Made by a program: the position numbers and the translations under genes
Shown here: piece after piece, positions 29,936-38,329 of the stretch
Numbering within the stretch: the stretch's first letter is position 1
Layout: every line of letters starts with the position of its first letter
The notes under the pieces: model-generated
Database searches by the model: none
What the model was told of the DNA's origin: nothing
What the model saw: the letters and a program-made list of their open reading frames with translations, nothing else
Assembly (NCBI RefSeq): GCF_007692705.1
Contig: NZ_REBN01000148.1
Coordinates: forward strand, 1-48,286
Length of the DNA stretch: 48,286 nt
Origin: Mongoliibacter sp.
Lineage (GTDB): Bacteria > Bacteroidota > Bacteroidia > Cytophagales > Cyclobacteriaceae
Direction: 5' to 3'

Positions 29936-30814
29936 ATGAAAATTGGAGTGGTTTCCTATGAAGCAAGGGGTTCTTCTTACACTGCTTCTTCAGTGGTAGA
30001 CGAGGATTTGGTACTGGAAGAAATTTTAAATGAACTGGGTGTAAATTTCAAATTTGAAATTTGGTCAGACGATTCTGTTCGATGGGAAAATTACGATCTT
30101 ATATTGATCAAATCTCCATGGGATTATTTTGACCGCTATGCTGAATTTTTGGATTGGTGCAATAAAATAAAAAGTCTTGGACTCCCTGTGTATAATAACA
30201 TAGATACCATTATCTGGAACTCCGATAAGTGGTACTTGAAGGAAATTCAGGAAAAAGGTTACCCAATAGTGCCCACACAATTTATAAGAAAATCCGAAAT
30301 GCCAGATATAAGAGGCGCTTTCCATCAGTTTGAAACTGATAAACTTATATTTAAGCCAACAGTGAGCGGTGGGGCCAAAAATACCCTTAAAATATTAAAA
30401 GAGTCATGGCTTGAAAATAAAGAACAAATTCTCTCCCTAATTAAAGAGGAGGATTTCATGCTTCAGCCCTTTGTCAAGGAAGTTGCTGAAATTGGAGAAT
30501 ATTCTTACATATTCTTTAAGGAGAACTTTTCCCATGCCATTCTCAAAACTGCCAAATCAGGTGATTTCCGAGTACAACATTTTTTTGGAGGCAGTATTCA
30601 AAATATAGTTCCAGACATAAAGGAGTTGACATATATTCAAAAACTGGTAGATGAATTTGCCAAAAACAGCCTTTATGCCCGTGTAGATGGTGTATGGATT
30701 GAAGGTGTTTTTTACCTGATGGAATTAGAATTGATTGAACCCTATTTGTTTCTCTTCACTTCCGACAAAGCAAGGGAAAATTATAAAAATGCTTTGAAAG
30801 AGGTTTTTAAATGA
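29936..30814 (+). CDS. ATP-grasp superfamily protein
   Basis: 292 residues. The pre-ATP-grasp part shows DLILIKSPWDYFDRYAEFLDW and PVYNNIDTIIWNSDKWYL. The ATP-grasp domain contains KLIFKPTVSGGAKNTL (ATP-binding Lys and Gly-rich loop), EDFMLQPFVKEVAEIGEYSYI, AILKTAKSGDFRVQHFFGGS, and YARVDGVWIEGVFYLMELELIEPYLF, which supplies the magnesium-binding Glu pair (split across residues 243-268). This is the RimK/glutathione-synthetase-like layout, close to orphan proteins that join a carboxylate to an amine or amino acid. Neither substrate is apparent and no peptide or siderophore genes are near. It is a single gene with no partner; family certain, reaction unknown. Confidence 0.85.
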   Translation: MKIGVVSYEARGSSYTASSVVDEDLVLEEILNELGVNFKFEIWSDDSVRWENYDLILIKSPWDYFDRYAEFLDWCNKIKSLGLPVYNNIDTIIWNSDKWYLKEIQEKGYPIVPTQFIRKSEMPDIRGAFHQFETDKLIFKPTVSGGAKNTLKILKESWLENKEQILSLIKEEDFMLQPFVKEVAEIGEYSYIFFKENFSHAILKTAKSGDFRVQHFFGGSIQNIVPDIKELTYIQKLVDEFAKNSLYARVDGVWIEGVFYLMELELIEPYLFLFTSDKARENYKNALKEVFK

Positions 30815-32004: not shown

Positions 32005-32141
32005 TACATATCAAGGATTTATTTAAAACTAACAAACTAAAAGTAAAAATGTTACTCAAATCCATTTTTTTCAATGAGTGGTCATAATCCAAAAATTATA
32101 ATGGGTTCGTAAATCCTTATCGAACGAAATTTATTAATGAT

Positions 32142-32567
32142 ATGATCAAAAGAATATTATTCGGAATAATTTCAATAGCGGCCTTTTTCACTGCCATACT
32201 AGCCGTTCACATTTACATGGTCACTCAGCAAAAAGAAGGTGCAGTGACTTCATTGACCATGAGTAGAATCGATTTTCCAGAAGCTATAGAACCTGAAAAT
32301 GGAAATCAGATCAAATTACACCTTGTCCAATTAGAGGGAGTCAAGGATGTTAGGGTTAATTTTTCAAATGGGCATATCATATGTCTTTACGACAGGAAAG
32401 CTCAATCACCACATGATCTTGTAGCGTCCATCAATGAGAATTTTATGGAGCAAGCGAGTTTGTTTCAACCATCGGAAGAAATGCTTGCGCAGAGCTGTCC
32501 GGCAATAGATAAAAATTCAATCACCTACAAACTTGGTGCTTTTTTTCAAAAATCTTTCCAAAATTAA
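32142..32567 (+). CDS. Small membrane-anchored protein with HMA-like fold
   Basis: 141 residues. One N-terminal membrane helix (ILFGIISIAAFFTAILAVHIYMV, about 5-27, split across this helix) is followed by a periplasm-side domain. Residues 60-110 look like a beta-alpha-beta-beta-alpha-beta HMA fold: IKLHLVQLEGVKDVRVNFSN, IICLYDRKAQSPHDLVASIN. The CxxC metal site of true HMA domains is absent (LVQLEGV at that place), so metal binding there is unlikely. A single Cys in LAQSCPAID is further on. It is 22 bases upstream of the globin-like lipoprotein gene and is probably in the same transcript, which suggests they act together at the inner face of the envelope. The fold call is from pattern only. 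Confidence 0.55.
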   Translation: MIKRILFGIISIAAFFTAILAVHIYMVTQQKEGAVTSLTMSRIDFPEAIEPENGNQIKLHLVQLEGVKDVRVNFSNGHIICLYDRKAQSPHDLVASINENFMEQASLFQPSEEMLAQSCPAIDKNSITYKLGAFFQKSFQN

Positions 32568-32589: not shown

Positions 32590-33672
32590 ATGAAACAAAT
32601 ACATTCATGGCTGTTGGCCGTTTTAGCTTTTGTGGTTGTAGGCTTGAGCTCCTGTGAACAGGAAGAAATGCCAACACCGCCCATGACAGAAGAGCCTGAC
32701 GATTCTTTCTATGCAACCCAACTAGGTGGGGAAACCAGGGTGCAAGACCCTCTGAACCAAAATCAGATGATAGAACAAGGTTTCTTGAACTTGCGAACAG
32801 TAGTAATCAATACTGTCACGACCATTGCTACCAATGAAGATGGCAAATATGACGCTCTTCAGCCCTACTTCTCAGTTTTGCTATCAGAAGTAGGAAGGAA
32901 CGAAACATCAGGATTGAACATGCTTGTCATGGATTTTACCGAGTTTCTTGCAGAAGCAACTGGGGCGAAGAATTTTGAATACACAGGTTTAGAAATGGTT
33001 GCGGCGCATGATCCTTCAAGAAATTCAAGGATGAATGGACTTATCAATAATGCAGATTATGATTTGTTTGTTCAAGCTGTGGTTGAAGGTGCTGCACAGG
33101 CTGGAATTACTTCAAATGAGGTCTTGGGTCCTGTAGGATCCTTATTAGAATCTATAAGAGAACCAATAGTGCAGAGAGCAGATGGCGAGATGCTTGATCT
33201 CTATACAAGATTAGGTGGTTCAGGATTAGTGTCAGACCCCGATAATGAGGGAGAATTGATTGAAGCAGGTTATATTCCATTGAGGGCTGTTGTTACAGAA
33301 ACTGTATTGGTTATCGCTACCAATGATGGAGGAACTTACGATGATTTATTGCCATATTTCTCTGTCTTATTGGCTGAAGTTGGCGCTAATGACTTATCCG
33401 GCTTCGCAGCATTGGTAGGTGATTTCAGTGATTTCTTGGCCGCGAATATTGGATCTCAGAACATTCAATACACTGGATTGAATATGGTAGATGCACATAA
33501 CCCTGAGGTAAACTCTAGGATGACAGGTTTGGTGACAGAAGCAGATTATGATTTGTTTATCGGTGCTGTAGTGGAAGCCGCTACCAATCTGGGAGTACCT
33601 GAATCCATTATAAATGAGTTTGGAGGATTGTTACTCAGTGAAGGATTGAGAAGTGCTGTGGTACAAGGTTGA
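32590..33672 (+). CDS. Lipoprotein with two tandem truncated-haemoglobin-like domains
   Basis: 360 residues. MKQIHSWLLAVLAFVVVGLS with the lipobox LSSC (Cys22) marks a lipoprotein. Two copies of one domain follow, residues 39-193 and 203-358, with a constant offset of 163. Each follows group-I truncated haemoglobin order: LYTRLGG (helix A), LRAVVTETVLVIATN (B), LLPYFSVLLAEVG (C/E), DFSDFLAANIG, QYTGLNMVDAH, and TEADYDLFIGAVVEAATNLG (H region). YTG is at 131 and 294, and His140 and His303 sit at the usual proximal (F8) haem ligand. The Phe-Tyr pair of helix B is not kept, and about 16 residues are inserted between A and B. Haem binding is plausible, not shown. Gas binding, electron transfer or storage at the envelope are options. 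Confidence 0.72.
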   Translation: MKQIHSWLLAVLAFVVVGLSSCEQEEMPTPPMTEEPDDSFYATQLGGETRVQDPLNQNQMIEQGFLNLRTVVINTVTTIATNEDGKYDALQPYFSVLLSEVGRNETSGLNMLVMDFTEFLAEATGAKNFEYTGLEMVAAHDPSRNSRMNGLINNADYDLFVQAVVEGAAQAGITSNEVLGPVGSLLESIREPIVQRADGEMLDLYTRLGGSGLVSDPDNEGELIEAGYIPLRAVVTETVLVIATNDGGTYDDLLPYFSVLLAEVGANDLSGFAALVGDFSDFLAANIGSQNIQYTGLNMVDAHNPEVNSRMTGLVTEADYDLFIGAVVEAATNLGVPESIINEFGGLLLSEGLRSAVVQG

Positions 33673-33799: not shown

Positions 33800-34894
33800 T
33801 TAAAGTACACCTTTGGTGCTTGGCAATTGATTCAATGATTTCAAATCCCTTTTAACAGCCATTTTAATGGCACGTGCCAATCCTTTGAAAATCGCTTCAA
33901 TTTTGTGATGTTCATTGTTGCCTTCTGCCTTTATGTTCAAGTTGCACTTGGCAGTATCACTGAAGGATTTGAAGAAATGGAAAAACATCTCTGTGGGCAT
34001 ATCTCCTATTTTTTCCCTCTTAAATTCTGCATCCCATACCATCCAAGGCCTTCCTCCGAAATCAATAGCAACCTGTGCCAAAACATCATCCATGGGGAGT
34101 AAAAATCCATAGCGGGAAATCCCTTTTTTATCTCCCAATGCTTGAAGATAAGCTTCACCCAGAGCTAAAGCAGTATCTTCTATAGTATGGTGCTCATCAA
34201 TATGCAGGTCGCCTTTTACTTCAATCCATAAATCAGCAGCACCATGCTTTCCAAGTTGCTCTAGCATATGGTCAAAGAATGGTAATCCTGTAAAAATATC
34301 ACATTTGCCTGTTCCATCAAGATTGACGACTACATGAATGTCTGTTTCGGATGTTTTCCTTCTTACCTCTCCCATCCTTGAAGGCATTTTCAAATGCTCA
34401 AAAATTGCATCCCAATCAGTTGTAGAGAAATCTGCTTCCGGTAAATCCTCTCCAATAAAAATAGATTTGGAACCTAAGTTTTTTGCCAACTGCACATCGG
34501 TTTTCCTATCCCCAATCACGTAAGAATTGGCCATATCATACTCTCCATTAAGGTATCCTTTCAATAGTCCAATACCGGGCTTTCGGGTAGGTAGATTTTC
34601 ATGCTCAAAAGATTTATCAATATGTATGGCAGAAAAAATAATCCCTTCGTTTTCCAATGTCTTTAACATTTTATACTGAGCCGGCCAAAAGTCTGCCTCA
34701 GGAAAAGATTCAGTTCCAAGACCATCTTGGTTTGTAACCATTACTAACTCATAATCAGTCTCTTCAGCTATTCTTCTTAAATTAAAGATTGCTTTAGGTA
34801 CAAACTCTAATTTCTCCAAACTATCAACCTGAAAATCAGTAGGTGGTTCTTTGATAATGGTACCATCCCTATCTATAAACAATACTTTTTTCAT
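33800..34894 (-). CDS. hisB: HisB: histidinol-phosphatase / imidazoleglycerol-phosphate dehydratase
   Basis: 364 residues, a fusion of two enzymes of histidine synthesis. Residues 1-165 are a HAD phosphatase: [13 protein letters not shown] with Asp8 and Asp10, [32 protein letters not shown]. Residues 172-364 are the dehydratase: [58 protein letters not shown], ending LPSTKGVL. The Zn-binding loop of E. coli HisB-N (CPHLPADECDC) is replaced by a segment without Cys ([17 protein letters not shown]). The domain is therefore expected to lack that zinc. The gene ends the hisG-D-C-B series; hisC lies 10 bases upstream. Confidence 0.97.
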
Positions 34895-34904
34895 CGGGGT
34901 AATT

Positions 34905-35966
34905 TTATTTTAAGGTTGAACTGTAGGTTTTTAATGCTTGGATAAGGGCCATATTTTCTTCTCGCGTTCCCAACGATATTCTCAGACAATCTTCGCATAA
35001 TTGGACTTTCGATCTGTCGCGCAAGATAATCATTTGCTTAATCAGGTATTCGTATATTTCCCTTGCCCTATCCATTTTGACCAATAGAAAATTGGCTTGA
35101 GATGAAAATATTTTTTTTACAAAAGGAAACTGTGGCAATTCGTTTTCCAGGTATAATTTTTCTTCAAATACTTTATGGACCAGGTTTTTAATATCTCCAG
35201 ACATTTCCAATGACTCCAATACTTTTTGCTGAGTCAGTCCGGATATATTATACGGTGGCTTGATCAAATTTAGGATGCGGATTATATCCTTTGAGGCGAA
35301 TGCCATTCCAATCCGTAAATTGGCCAGTCCCCAAGCTTTGGAAAATGTCTGCATTACCAAGAGGTTGGGATACCTTTCCAACTCTTCAGTAAAACTCGGT
35401 TCGTCAGAAAAGTCAATGTATGCTTCATCGACCACCACCAAGCCATCGAAACCTTCAATAATTTTCCGGATGGCATTTCTATCCATTTTATTTCCACTTG
35501 GATTATTAGGAGAGCAAATAAAAATCACTTTTGAATCCTTATCTACCAAGGAAAAAACCAATTCAGGCTGAAGTTGAAAATCTTCAGTGAGGGGAGCCTT
35601 TTTGATGGCAATATCATTGATAGCGGCTGATACTTCATACATGCCGTAAGTTGGAGGCAAAAGTATGATGTTATCTTTCCCTGGATTACAGAAAGCGCGC
35701 ATCAGCAGATCAATTGCCTCATCGCTCCCATTACCAAGAAAAATCTGCTCAACCTTCACTCCTTTTATAGGTGCCAGCTTTTGCTTGATATCTGCCTGAT
35801 AAGGATCGGGATACCTATTGAAATCATCACCCGTCAGCGATCCATAAGGGTTTTCATTGGCATCCAAAAAGACCCCTATTTTTCCTGAATATTCATCTCG
35901 AGCTGAAGAATAAGGTTTGATATTCAATATATGGGGTCGAAGTAATTTTTGAAGTTCAAATGCCAT
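34905..35966 (-). CDS. hisC: Histidinol-phosphate aminotransferase
   Basis: 353 residues, fold-type I PLP enzyme. It converts imidazole acetol phosphate to histidinol phosphate with glutamate. Landmarks are [12 protein letters not shown] near the N-terminus, [40 protein letters not shown], and [14 protein letters not shown] with the PLP Lys. The close is [13 protein letters not shown]. It starts one base after the hisD stop and ends 10 bases before hisB, so translation is coupled with both. Length is normal. Confidence 0.97.
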
Positions 35967-35967
35967 C

Positions 35968-37257
35968 TTATTTTCCTTCCAGGTATTTTAGCCTAATTGT
36001 CACTGCATTTTTGTGGGCCTCCAAAAGTTCATTTCCAGCCATAATTTCTACTGTCGGTCCAAGATTTTTTATCCCCTCTTCTGTGATTTTCTGGTAAGTA
36101 ATCTTTTTGACAAAGCTGTCTAAAGATACCCCTGAATAACTTTTCGCATAACCATAAGTAGGAAGCGTATGGTTTGTTCCGGAAGCATAGTCTCCGGCAG
36201 ACTCCGGTGTATAATTACCAATAAATACTGAACCTGCATTTATTATTCTGGAAACCACTTCCTCTTCATTATTGACACAGATGATAAGGTGCTCAGGTGC
36301 ATAATCATTAATCAATTGAATGGCTTTTTCTTCATTACCTACAATCACAGTAACAGAGTTTTCTAATGCTCTTTTCGCAATTTCCTTTCTTGGAAGGAGT
36401 TCAAGCTGAGCTTCCAATTCCTTCATTACCTTATCTGTTACGATCTCTGAACTGGCCACCAAGATTACCTGTGAATCGACTCCATGCTCTGCTTGAGACA
36501 AGAGGTCTGATGCGACAAAAGCCGGTATGGCAGAATTATCTGCATAAACCAAAACCTCAGATGGTCCGGCAGGCATGTCTATGGCCAAACCTTTTTTCAC
36601 TGCCAACTGCTTTGCAGCAGTAACATACTGATTACCAGGACCAAATATTTTATCCACTCTAGGAACTGATTCTGTTCCATAAGTCATGGCTGCAATGGCC
36701 TGAGCGCCTCCTGCTTTAACGATTTTATCAATCCCAATCAGATCCGCCGTGAAGAGGATGGCAGGATGGATATTTCCCTCCTTATCAGGTGGAGTACACA
36801 ATACTATTTCATCACAACCAGCAATATTTGCAGGTATACCCAACATCAGTACTGTAGAGAAAAGGGGCGCTGTACCTCCCGGAACATAAAGACCAACTTT
36901 CTGAATAGCGACTGATTTTCTCATGCACATTACTCCTGGCATGATTTCCATCTCCAGGTCGGGAGCAATCTGTGCCTCATGAAATTTTTCAATATTATTC
37001 TTTGCTAGAATAATTGCCTCTTTAAGTTCTGGGGAAACTTTATCCTTTGCCTGTTTCACTTCTTCAGGACTTACCAAGAGATTTTTAACCTGTACATGAT
37101 CGTATTCCAAGGCAAACTTGATCAGCGCTTTATCTCCCTGACGTTTGACTTTTCGCATGATGGGCTTTACTATTTTCTCAATATCCTTGGTTTTCTGAAC
37201 AGGTCTTTTCAGCGCCTTCTTCCATTCAGACTTGGTAGGATTATATATTCGTTTCAT
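35968..37257 (-). CDS. hisD: Histidinol dehydrogenase
   Basis: 429 residues. It oxidises histidinol to histidine in two NAD-dependent steps, with zinc. Motifs are VGLYVPGGTAPLFSTVLM, GGAQAIAAMTYGTESVP, KIFGPGNQYVTAAKQLA, DMPAGPSEVLVYAD and SDLLSQAEHGVDSQVIL with zinc-binding Gln/His; NDYAPEHL and GDYASGTNHTLPTYGYAKSY are near the end. It is the second gene of the his series, but there is a 211-base gap to hisG upstream, longer than elsewhere in the cluster. One base separates it from hisC. Confidence 0.97.
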   Translation of the reverse strand: MKRIYNPTKSEWKKALKRPVQKTKDIEKIVKPIMRKVKRQGDKALIKFALEYDHVQVKNLLVSPEEVKQAKDKVSPELKEAIILAKNNIEKFHEAQIAPDLEMEIMPGVMCMRKSVAIQKVGLYVPGGTAPLFSTVLMLGIPANIAGCDEIVLCTPPDKEGNIHPAILFTADLIGIDKIVKAGGAQAIAAMTYGTESVPRVDKIFGPGNQYVTAAKQLAVKKGLAIDMPAGPSEVLVYADNSAIPAFVASDLLSQAEHGVDSQVILVASSEIVTDKVMKELEAQLELLPRKEIAKRALENSVTVIVGNEEKAIQLINDYAPEHLIICVNNEEEVVSRIINAGSVFIGNYTPESAGDYASGTNHTLPTYGYAKSYSGVSLDSFVKKITYQKITEEGIKNLGPTVEIMAGNELLEAHKNAVTIRLKYLEGK

Positions 37258-37468
37258 GTGTTTATAATTTGTTTTTCAGAGGTCATAACTTGTCCAGGTT
37301 TATCGGGACGGAATATTGCAATTTACCCCAATAACTACCGAGGCTCAAATGTGTGAAAATTTCATTTTACCTGCCTGAAGCGGAAAGGCCCGATCTCATC
37401 AATCAATGAATTATAAAGTATACTTAAATCATGCAGATTCATTAAACATACTCCTTTTTTAAAGAAAA
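37258..37468. other. Gap between hisG and hisD
   Basis: 211 bases inside an otherwise tightly packed his cluster. No gene and no full TAnnTTTG box was found. A weak hairpin (GCCT/AGGC around 37374-37390) is present, too short to call a terminator. It may hold an internal promoter or a regulatory leader. Confidence 0.4.
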
Positions 37469-38329
37469 TCAGATCACCATTTTTTCAATAGGAACCACAA
37501 GGATGCCTTCAGCACCTGCTGACCTAAGTTCTTCTATGTTTTCCCAAAACTGATCCTCAGCAATCACAGAATGTACGGAAGACCATCCTTCCTGAGCCAA
37601 TGGCAAAATCGTCGGACTTCTCATTCCAGGAATTAAACTGATTATTTTATCCAAAGCATCATTTGGAGCGTTTAAAAGCACATACTTGTTGCTTTTTCCT
37701 TTTTGAACGGCATTCATCCTAAAAAGAAGTTTGTCCACAATTTCCAGTTTCTCTGCATCAAGCTTCTTGTTACAGATGAGCACAGCCTCAGATTTAAAAA
37801 TCGTTTCCACTTCCTTCAGTCCATTCATCATCAGAGTAGAACCCGAACTCACAATATCACATATACCTTCTGCCAATCCTATGCTAGGTGCTATTTCCAC
37901 GGAGCCAGAAATTTCATGTATTTCTGCGTGGACATTTTGATTTTCCAGGAAATCACTTAAGATTTTTGGGTAGGAAGTTGCAATGTTTTTTCCTTGAAAA
38001 TGATGAATATTGGTATATTCCTCCCCTTTGGGAATGGCAAGTGAAAGCCTGCACTTAGAAAAACCAAGTTTTTTCAAAACATTGACATCTTTATCTTTTT
38101 CTACAAGCTCATTTTCACCAACAATACCGAGGTCGGCAACTCCGTCCGCTACATAGCCAGGAATATCATCGTCTCGAAGAAATAGAAATTCAATTGGAAA
38201 ATTGGTAGATGTGGATTTAAGTTTTCCCGTTCCATTGTAAAACTTAATGCCGCATTCTTTAATAAGGCTTAACGAGTCTTCGCTTAATCTGCCACTTTTT
38301 TGGACAGCAATTCTAATGATTGGATTCAT
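37469..38329 (-). CDS. hisG: ATP phosphoribosyltransferase, long form
   Basis: 286 residues. It performs the first step of histidine synthesis, joining ATP and PRPP. Motifs are RIAVQKSGRLSEDSL at the N-terminus, DDDIPGYVADGVADLGIVGENEL, and IATSYPKILSDFLENQ. ISGSVEIAPSIGLAEGICDIVSSGSTL is the PRPP loop (split near 141-167). Residues 210-286 are the C-terminal ACT-like regulatory domain of the long HisG (PGMRSPTILPLAQEGWSS, EGILVVPIEKMVI), so histidine feedback inhibition without HisZ is expected. It is the first gene of the cluster on this strand. Confidence 0.97.
   Translation of the reverse strand: MNPIIRIAVQKSGRLSEDSLSLIKECGIKFYNGTGKLKSTSTNFPIEFLFLRDDDIPGYVADGVADLGIVGENELVEKDKDVNVLKKLGFSKCRLSLAIPKGEEYTNIHHFQGKNIATSYPKILSDFLENQNVHAEIHEISGSVEIAPSIGLAEGICDIVSSGSTLMMNGLKEVETIFKSEAVLICNKKLDAEKLEIVDKLLFRMNAVQKGKSNKYVLLNAPNDALDKIISLIPGMRSPTILPLAQEGWSSVHSVIAEDQFWENIEELRSAGAEGILVVPIEKMVI

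Follow-up and report, generated by a model that had tools for sequence, protein, structure and literature searches.

By the window we mean the whole stretch of DNA analysed here, 48,286 nucleotides of a contig from Mongoliibacter sp. One of its open reading frames was read in an earlier note, from the sequence alone, as a lipoprotein made of two truncated-haemoglobin (trHb) domains, which raises the question of whether this protein is a globin at all and, if so, what it does outside the cytoplasm. Neither Pfam nor NCBIfam gives a credible match to it; a Pfam phage_tail_N match (E 0.006) and a match to the NCBIfam sedoheptulose-7-phosphate isomerase model (E 0.04), both under the curated cut-off, were rejected as chance. 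The features of the locus are collected in Table 1.

Table 1. Features of the tandem globin gene, its upstream partner gene and their presumed promoter (positions in the window)
Feature	Position	Strand	Basis
Presumed ECF-sigma-type promoter of the gene pair, AATCCA-N15-TCGTAAAT	32086-32114	+	Pattern scan
Partner gene, 141 amino acids; one presumed transmembrane helix and an HMA (ferredoxin-like) domain without CxxC	32142-32567	+	AF2 model, Foldseek, gene order
Codon of partner His23, in the presumed transmembrane helix	32208-32210	+	His in 26 of 27 rows
Codons of the invariant partner Cys119-Pro120	32496-32501	+	27 of 27 rows
Tandem truncated-globin lipoprotein gene	32590-33672	+	Open reading frame, 360 amino acids
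Lipoprotein signal with lipobox LSSC and Cys22, acidic tail EQEE next	32590-32655	+	Resemblance to lipoprotein export signal
Globin domain D1, residues 39-195; proximal His140 codon 33007-33009	32704-33174	+	Domain alignments and structure matches
17-residue insert in D1 between helices A and B	32746-32796	+	Alignment with canonical trHbs; short strands in model
Globin domain D2, residues 203-360; proximal His303 codon 33496-33498	33196-33669	+	Structural alignment of model residues 182-339
17-residue insert in D2 between helices A and B	33235-33285	+	Alignment with canonical trHbs

The two halves proposed in the note, at an exact offset of 163 residues, were recovered: without gaps, 78 of 159 residues are identical at this offset, against 24 at the next best offset in the range of 100 to 219 and a highest count of 24 in 1000 shuffles at offset 163. 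BLASTP aligns D1 with D2 at 52% identity (E 4e-54). Both domains keep the YTG motif (residues 131 and 294) and the histidine at the proximal position, as had been claimed, and His140 and His303 are the sole histidines of the mature protein. The Phe-Tyr pair of helix B is missing from both, positions B9-B10 being Thr-Val, and helices A and B are indeed separated by an insert relative to canonical trHbs; in the AlphaFold model, short strands are found at and within it. A second insertion, DP..N.RM, comes after the proximal histidine, and alignment with canonical trHbs indicates an extended C-E region.

By itself the window protein finds only a hint of its fold in the PDB, since the top phmmer match is truncated haemoglobin THB11 but with E 1.3. 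When an alignment of 25 domain rows (A1) was used as a profile, group 1 truncated haemoglobins came first, with E-values of 2.5e-7 to about 1e-6; the match spans the E-to-H part and a short piece of the A-helix and does not cover helix B, and the 22 sequences at E≤10 include three non-haemoglobins (E 0.67, 1.7 and 1.7). By hhalign, A1 aligns with an alignment of 13 trHbs sharing no row with it (A4) over 127 columns with a probability of 98.6%. The Pfam family of truncated haemoglobins, PF01152 (Bac_globin), matches none of the 25 A1 rows at E≤1, nor the window protein. L048 and L049, two insert-free lipoprotein relatives, pass the PF01152 cut-off (1.3e-12 and 2.2e-8, respectively) and also match the family profile, and in this way bridge the two. 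The AlphaFold model of the tandem globin has a mean pLDDT of 90.3 and a pTM of 0.80. Its D2 (model residues 182-339) superposes on Shewanella benthica trHb 9yg7_A with Z 16.9 and rmsd 1.4 Å over 116 of 116 residues (VIA), whereas for D1 (model residues 14-180) the best among the matches listed is a group II trHb, 2bkm_A (Z 14.1, rmsd 2.6, 124 residues aligned; VIA). Foldseek with the whole two-domain model places trHbN first (E 8.6e-4).

A non-globin fold, named in the note as one outcome that would refute it, was not met in either domain, by profiles or by predicted structure. The lack of any credible Pfam or NCBIfam match would still suit a helical lipoprotein with a merely chance resemblance to globins; this possibility, to which we assign practically no weight, is ruled out by the PDB matches of the A1 profile, the bridging relatives, the hhalign result and the D2 superposition. 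The assignment to group I stood only in part: it is supported by sequence (profile and hhalign) and by the structure of D2, which is nearest to group I rows, but the subgroup of D1 is not settled, because the structures among its listed matches belong to group II (Z about 14). On the alignments and the predicted model, the open reading frame is a lipoprotein of two group-I-type truncated-globin domains. They form a divergent branch of the group I trHbs and not a typical member, having lost Tyr B10 and falling under the PF01152 cut-off.

The Phe-Tyr pair of helix B, which contains Tyr B10, is typical of group I trHbs, though not universal, and in trHbN a polar distal cage stabilises O2. The haem site was compared across 49 aligned domains, 35 of them from this family (18 from doublets and 17 single-domain); the positions B10, E7, E11 and F8 are numbered as placed on L033. 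F8 is His in all 49 domains, hence in all 35 family domains, and CD1 is Phe in all 35. In the model, His140 and His303 occupy the F8 position just as the note had placed them, directly after a short F helix (helix 115-118 and then model residue 119; helix 278-281 and then 282), although the cavity itself was not inspected. We expect one b-type haem per domain, bound to the F8 histidine; haem binding is inferred and has not been shown. On the distal side, Tyr B10 is found in none of the 35 family domains: Val occupies B10 throughout the 18 doublet domains, and the 17 single-domain relatives have Ile, Leu, Val or Gly there, whereas two cytoplasmic group I and three group II comparison rows keep the Tyr. 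E11 is Phe or Leu, and E7 is Leu. Gln E11 occurs in only one of the five comparison rows, being missing from one of the two group I and all three group II rows, so that its loss alone says little. We infer that the distal pocket (Val B10, Phe E11, Leu E7) is apolar and unsuited to hydrogen-bond O2. Without the polar cage of the trHbN type, handling of NO, CO or peroxide is likelier than O2 storage.

Since haem has not been shown, an apo-globin remains possible. The protein could be a haem-less structural or protein-binding globin recruited to keep the envelope intact under stress, alongside fasciclin proteins, and the changed pocket residues of the B- and E-helices would fit this; the invariance of the F8 His and of the CD1 Phe across all 35 family domains and the fact that the F8 histidines are the only ones in the mature window protein speak against it, and we consider it improbable, the least credible of the functional readings weighed here.

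An order-level search matched nine of 241 genomes, the source genome included, and genome contigs gave seven loci. A profile search of the phylum, in which only the best eight candidate places were scored in most genomes, matched 18 of 395; one of these, G450, contributes an ordinary cytoplasmic trHb without the partner gene described below. Single-domain lipoprotein relatives are sparse; they come from eight further families of Bacteroidota and from one Flavobacteriales MAG. In a tree of 46 domains, all nine D1 form one clade (support 99/97) and all nine D2 another (97/96), the two being joined at 100/99. As D1 and D2 rows are each monophyletic, the doublet goes back to one duplication. Six named doublet genomes belong to Cyclobacteriaceae, and the other three (the source, G205 and G225), which share one family, are taken to be Cyclobacteriaceae too. 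The source genome yielded no further copy of the family: the sole extra profile match, G000:C253 (E 0.015), was rejected because it spans profile positions 1-42, the signal-peptide part only. It does encode an ordinary cytoplasmic truncated globin, apparently of group II (L002; G000:C217:71480-71833).

The note had called an exported double globin unusual, and this stands for the tandem doublet and not for export alone, which is met in single-domain lipoproteins and in signal-peptide trHbs of the phylum. What is unusual here is the tandem doublet, a fixed partner gene and an ECF-type promoter in common with hemA. Six group-1-like trHbs elsewhere in the phylum (L101, L103, L105, L108, L113 and L114) have an apparent signal peptide and no lipobox. 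Tyr B10 is absent from all six, and its loss thus goes with export in this small, hand-picked sample.

That the protein is a lipoprotein, as the note had it, is borne out by the lipobox LSSC with Cys22. Among the 28 relatives, 26 have a lipobox by pattern and the other two a fitting Cys by eye, and in 23 of the 26, acidic residues fill two or more of the positions +2 to +7 after the Cys. In Bacteroidetes, a lipoprotein export signal directs lipoproteins to the surface, according to the part of the source available (PMC5080379). The tail CEQEEM of the tandem globin is acidic, yet fits no published export-signal consensus exactly. Surface exposure is likely, its location being inferred from these residues.

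Directly 5′ of the globin gene and on the same strand, a partner gene is present in 28 of 28 loci. The upstream gene falls into one cluster at 26 of them, and L048 and L049 have a diverged version. It is the sole constant neighbour; other clusters recur in some loci and have been identified in part. The AF2 model of the partner (pLDDT 88) consists of a helix at residues 2-28 followed by a beta-alpha-beta-beta-alpha order, and Foldseek matches it to the HMA domain of ATP7B (6a71_A, TMt 0.91) and to MerP (1osd_A, TMt 0.89). The L048-type partner reaches 23.8 bits against the Pfam HMA family, just short of the cut-off of 24.8. CxxC occurs in none of the 27 rows of the partner alignment (A2), on which the residue counts of Table 1 are based, and a classical HMA metallochaperone role was rejected on this ground.

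A profile of the 27 partners matched 70 of 395 genomes at E≤1e-3. All 15 matches below 1e-20, plus that in G010 (2.5e-6), adjoin a globin match, and no match below 1e-20 without an adjoining globin was found in the 395 genomes. Because 12 of the 15 strong matches are themselves profile rows, the news rests with G408, G437, G453 and G010. The remaining matches (E 7e-9 or worse) cover mostly the central HMA part only. Seen from the other side, 16 of the 18 globin-matching genomes have the partner by profile; in G030 it was recognised by eye only, having been missed at 1e-3, and G450 lacks it. The partner's role is inferred, with no evidence of haem binding by it; most likely it aids haem loading or guards the globin in transit.

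Several other observations concern the surroundings of such genes. After the globin gene of the window, histidine biosynthesis genes occupy 33800-38329 on the opposite strand, and the same cluster follows directly in L011 and L013. The region 29936-30814 encodes an ATP-grasp-like protein with a weak Pfam match only (GSH-S_ATP, E 0.04). A beta-barrel-like protein and a small protein belonging to one cluster recur near the pair (L054:10675-12542 and L049:4770-6803); the small protein of L054 has no Pfam match and contains a CxxCH motif, by eye that of a possible c-type cytochrome. Another HMA-globin neighbourhood was seen at L093:2190-2492, where a group II truncated globin has as a near neighbour an HMA protein that resembles a lipoprotein and contains CSSC.

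The pair is preceded by a shared upstream element, which we take to be of the ECF sigma promoter type. Scanning 295-base upstream regions with A[AT]CC-N14..22-CGTA detected it in 22 of 28 loci, always with a spacing of 16 or 17, namely in nine of nine doublets, 13 of 17 singles and neither of the two insert-free forms; it is missing from the remaining six pairs. In 300 first-order Markov shuffles of the upstream regions the mean was 0.84 and the maximum 5. This figure overstates the case, as the pattern was written after the regions had been viewed and the genomes are related, and genome-wide counts are fairer. The strict form, AATCCA-N15..17-TCGTAWDT, has four sites in the source genome, every one with N15, against none in the reversed control. 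One each precedes the pair, a CMD (AhpD-like) gene and a DUF4394 gene, and the fourth has no fitting gene. In the eight other doublet genomes the strict form occurs at 32 N15 sites (control 1) and seven N16 sites (control 2). Inspection of 34 strict sites assigned eight to the pair, five to DUF4394 lipoproteins, four to CMD genes, three to fasciclins, two, in two relatives, to hemA and two to Rieske-like proteins (by eye), while 10, one of them in the source genome, have another or no coherent target. A ninth pair site, G624:C24:44243, lies outside the inspected loci and has the same sequence as that upstream of L014. With one mismatch allowed, the search becomes noisy, giving 16 hits where the reversed control gives 10; its source-genome sites include one 30 bases ahead of a fasciclin gene, one 31 bases ahead of a gene for a CHRD-like lipoprotein (by eye) and one 157 bases ahead of hemA. 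Pfam confirms CMD, HemA, fasciclin, RskA_C, ECF sigma and DUF4394 in the source genome; target genes in the relatives were equated with these by eye. The element's activity as a promoter and the identity of the sigma factor reading it are inferences. For the haem-less globin considered above, the element in common with secreted fasciclin and DUF4394 proteins is a point in favour, and its presence before hemA a point against.

Two of the source-genome loci carrying the element deserve mention in their own right. At L123:2817-5827 (G000:C140), the CMD gene is followed by what appears by eye to be an arsenosugar-type set (radical SAM, glycosyltransferase and methyltransferase), and a hemF-like gene, also by eye, lies slightly upstream. 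The DUF4394 lipoprotein at L124:5293-6831 (G000:C232) is of unknown function, and such a site is found in five of the nine doublet genomes.

Seven of 28 loci, from four families, have genes of the hemA cluster at a distance of one or two genes from the pair (L017, L043, L044, L045, L046, L051 and L054). Three of these loci, all from genus g109, have hemA-hemC-hemD-hemE after the globin gene, for which Pfam identified hemA, C and E in L043 and hemD in L045. Genes for an ECF sigma factor and an RskA-type anti-sigma factor are within three genes of the pair in five of 28 loci (L016, L038, L040, L041 and L048), of which four each represent a different family and the fifth is from a Flavobacteriales MAG; Pfam was run on L040. 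Among the neighbours listed, no hemA was found in 21 of 28 loci and no ECF/RskA genes in 23 of 28. The source genome encodes a single RskA_C protein, next to an ECF sigma gene (G000:C105), and no copy of the promoter was found in the 9 kb inspected around this operon, so that the link between promoter and regulator rests on adjacency in other genomes. It is on the adjacency in five of 28 loci and the fasciclin target that we infer the sigma factor next to RskA to read the promoter at 32086. In mycobacteria, SigK/RskA controls exported fasciclin-domain proteins, as stated in the accessible parts of the sources (PMC10540498, PMC9861118). In the excerpt available, one of them terms the stimuli obscure, with work on redox sensitivity among its cited references (PMC9861118), and for a soil actinobacterium a partly available source gives a decrease of RskA under UV (PMC8965627).

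These neighbourhoods bear on two further readings, both of which we regard as unlikely. First, the twin globin could be a surface protein for haem uptake or storage that captures or buffers external haem, the partner relaying it inward. Probable surface anchoring, a haem fold with an invariant F8 His, and the occurrence, in some loci, of hemA and further hem genes close to the pair are all compatible with this. However, only the partner is constant beside the pair, no haem-receptor or importer genes were noticed near it (not all neighbours having been identified), and control in common with haem synthesis suggests that haem made by the cell itself, and not imported haem, is in demand. In four doublet loci, an FtsX-type permease gene lies five to six genes from the pair. 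Second, and with no better prospects, the globin could be a gas or redox sensor that binds NO, CO or O2 and alters RskA activity through the membrane partner in a feedback loop. The ECF/RskA genes close to the pair, the ECF-type promoter before it and the membrane anchor of the partner agree with such a circuit, but no signalling domain was recognised in the globin or the partner, and ECF/RskA genes are lacking among the neighbours listed for most loci.

We lean, though only slightly, to another explanation: that the locus encodes an exported, lipid-anchored and probably cell-surface tandem haemoglobin, made with its HMA-fold partner from the ECF-sigma promoter of a small, probably RskA-controlled envelope/redox stress regulon that includes hemA, and that this haemoglobin handles NO, CO or peroxide. 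It is built on the observed fold, tandem duplication, lipobox, F8 histidine, distal residues, gene pairing and promoter element with its genes. The apparent switch-on by a stress-type sigma factor alongside haem synthesis points to an unstudied haem protein of the envelope. Envelope stress would cause the ECF factor to start the pair and haem synthesis; Sec would export the globin in an unfolded state; the membrane partner would assist its haem loading or folding in the periplasm, before the outer membrane; and the finished twin haem protein at the outer membrane would react with NO, CO or peroxides. Each of these steps is an inference from the anatomy described, the first of the four being the best supported. 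A bolder proposal, which we hold only tentatively, is that of a dedicated assembly system for exported haem b, in which a stress-induced surface tandem globin would be loaded in the periplasm by the membrane-anchored HMA-fold partner, in which an invariant Cys-Pro and a conserved transmembrane His would have taken the place of the metal site, while the same sigma factor would raise haem synthesis. CcmE is a haem chaperone, and the partner would work like it, though unrelated.

To our knowledge, little is understood of how exported haem-b proteins are supplied with haem outside the cytoplasm, and there are hardly any descriptions of haemoglobins displayed on bacterial cells. Both questions become testable in culturable bacteria with this conserved two-gene module, given its constant partner, its defined promoter element and a hemA that carries the same element. 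A family scattered over Bacteroidota and unrecognised by Pfam and NCBIfam also acquires a fold and a partner, along with a probable regulator and a hypothesis to work from. Among the open-licence papers listed, judged by the listing and the opening of the abstract, none names a tandem lipoprotein globin of this kind or its promoter; this is a known fold in a new form, for whose constant partner and set of promoter-sharing genes no description turned up there either.

The tandem globin has the same fold as group I trHbs (TrHb1, PF01152; 9yg7, Tetrahymena 3aq5 and M. tuberculosis HbN 1idr), and shares with them LY.RLGG in the A-helix and YTG..M..AH with the F8 His, its Leu E7 being as in L033. 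It differs from them in the lipid anchor, the tandem arrangement, the A-B insert, DP..N.RM after F8, Val B10, Phe E11 and the absence of a Pfam match. The exported trHbs of the phylum (L101, L103, L105, L108, L113 and L114) and the insert-free lipoproteins (L035, L048 and L049) likewise have a signal peptide or lipobox (by eye), an F8 His and no Tyr B10, and the insert-free lipoproteins have a partner-like upstream gene, found by profile for L048, present for L049 and seen only by eye for L035 (none at E≤1e-3); unlike the tandem globin, the other exported trHbs are single-domain and have neither the A-B insert nor the F-G insertion. The lPHCtX proteins of cable bacteria, as far as the accessible part of the source describes them, are also exported and contain one or two trHb domains, but these are fused to a pentahaem cytochrome, whereas the tandem globin has a lipid anchor and no c-type haem motif by eye; O2 reduction has been proposed for the cable-bacteria trHb cytochromes (PMC11976967). 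The partner has its fold in common with the HMA domains of MerP, ATP7B and CopZ, and departs from them in lacking CxxC and in having a transmembrane anchor, a C-terminal helix and an invariant Cys-Pro. The likeness to mycobacterial SigK/RskA, judged on the portions of the sources at hand, lies in an ECF sigma factor with an RskA-family anti-sigma factor and a tiny regulon with exported fasciclin proteins (PMC10540498, PMC7509140, PMC9861118); the gene set here, for which the link between sigma factor and promoter is inferred, goes beyond that system with a globin pair, hemA, DUF4394 and AhpD-like genes.
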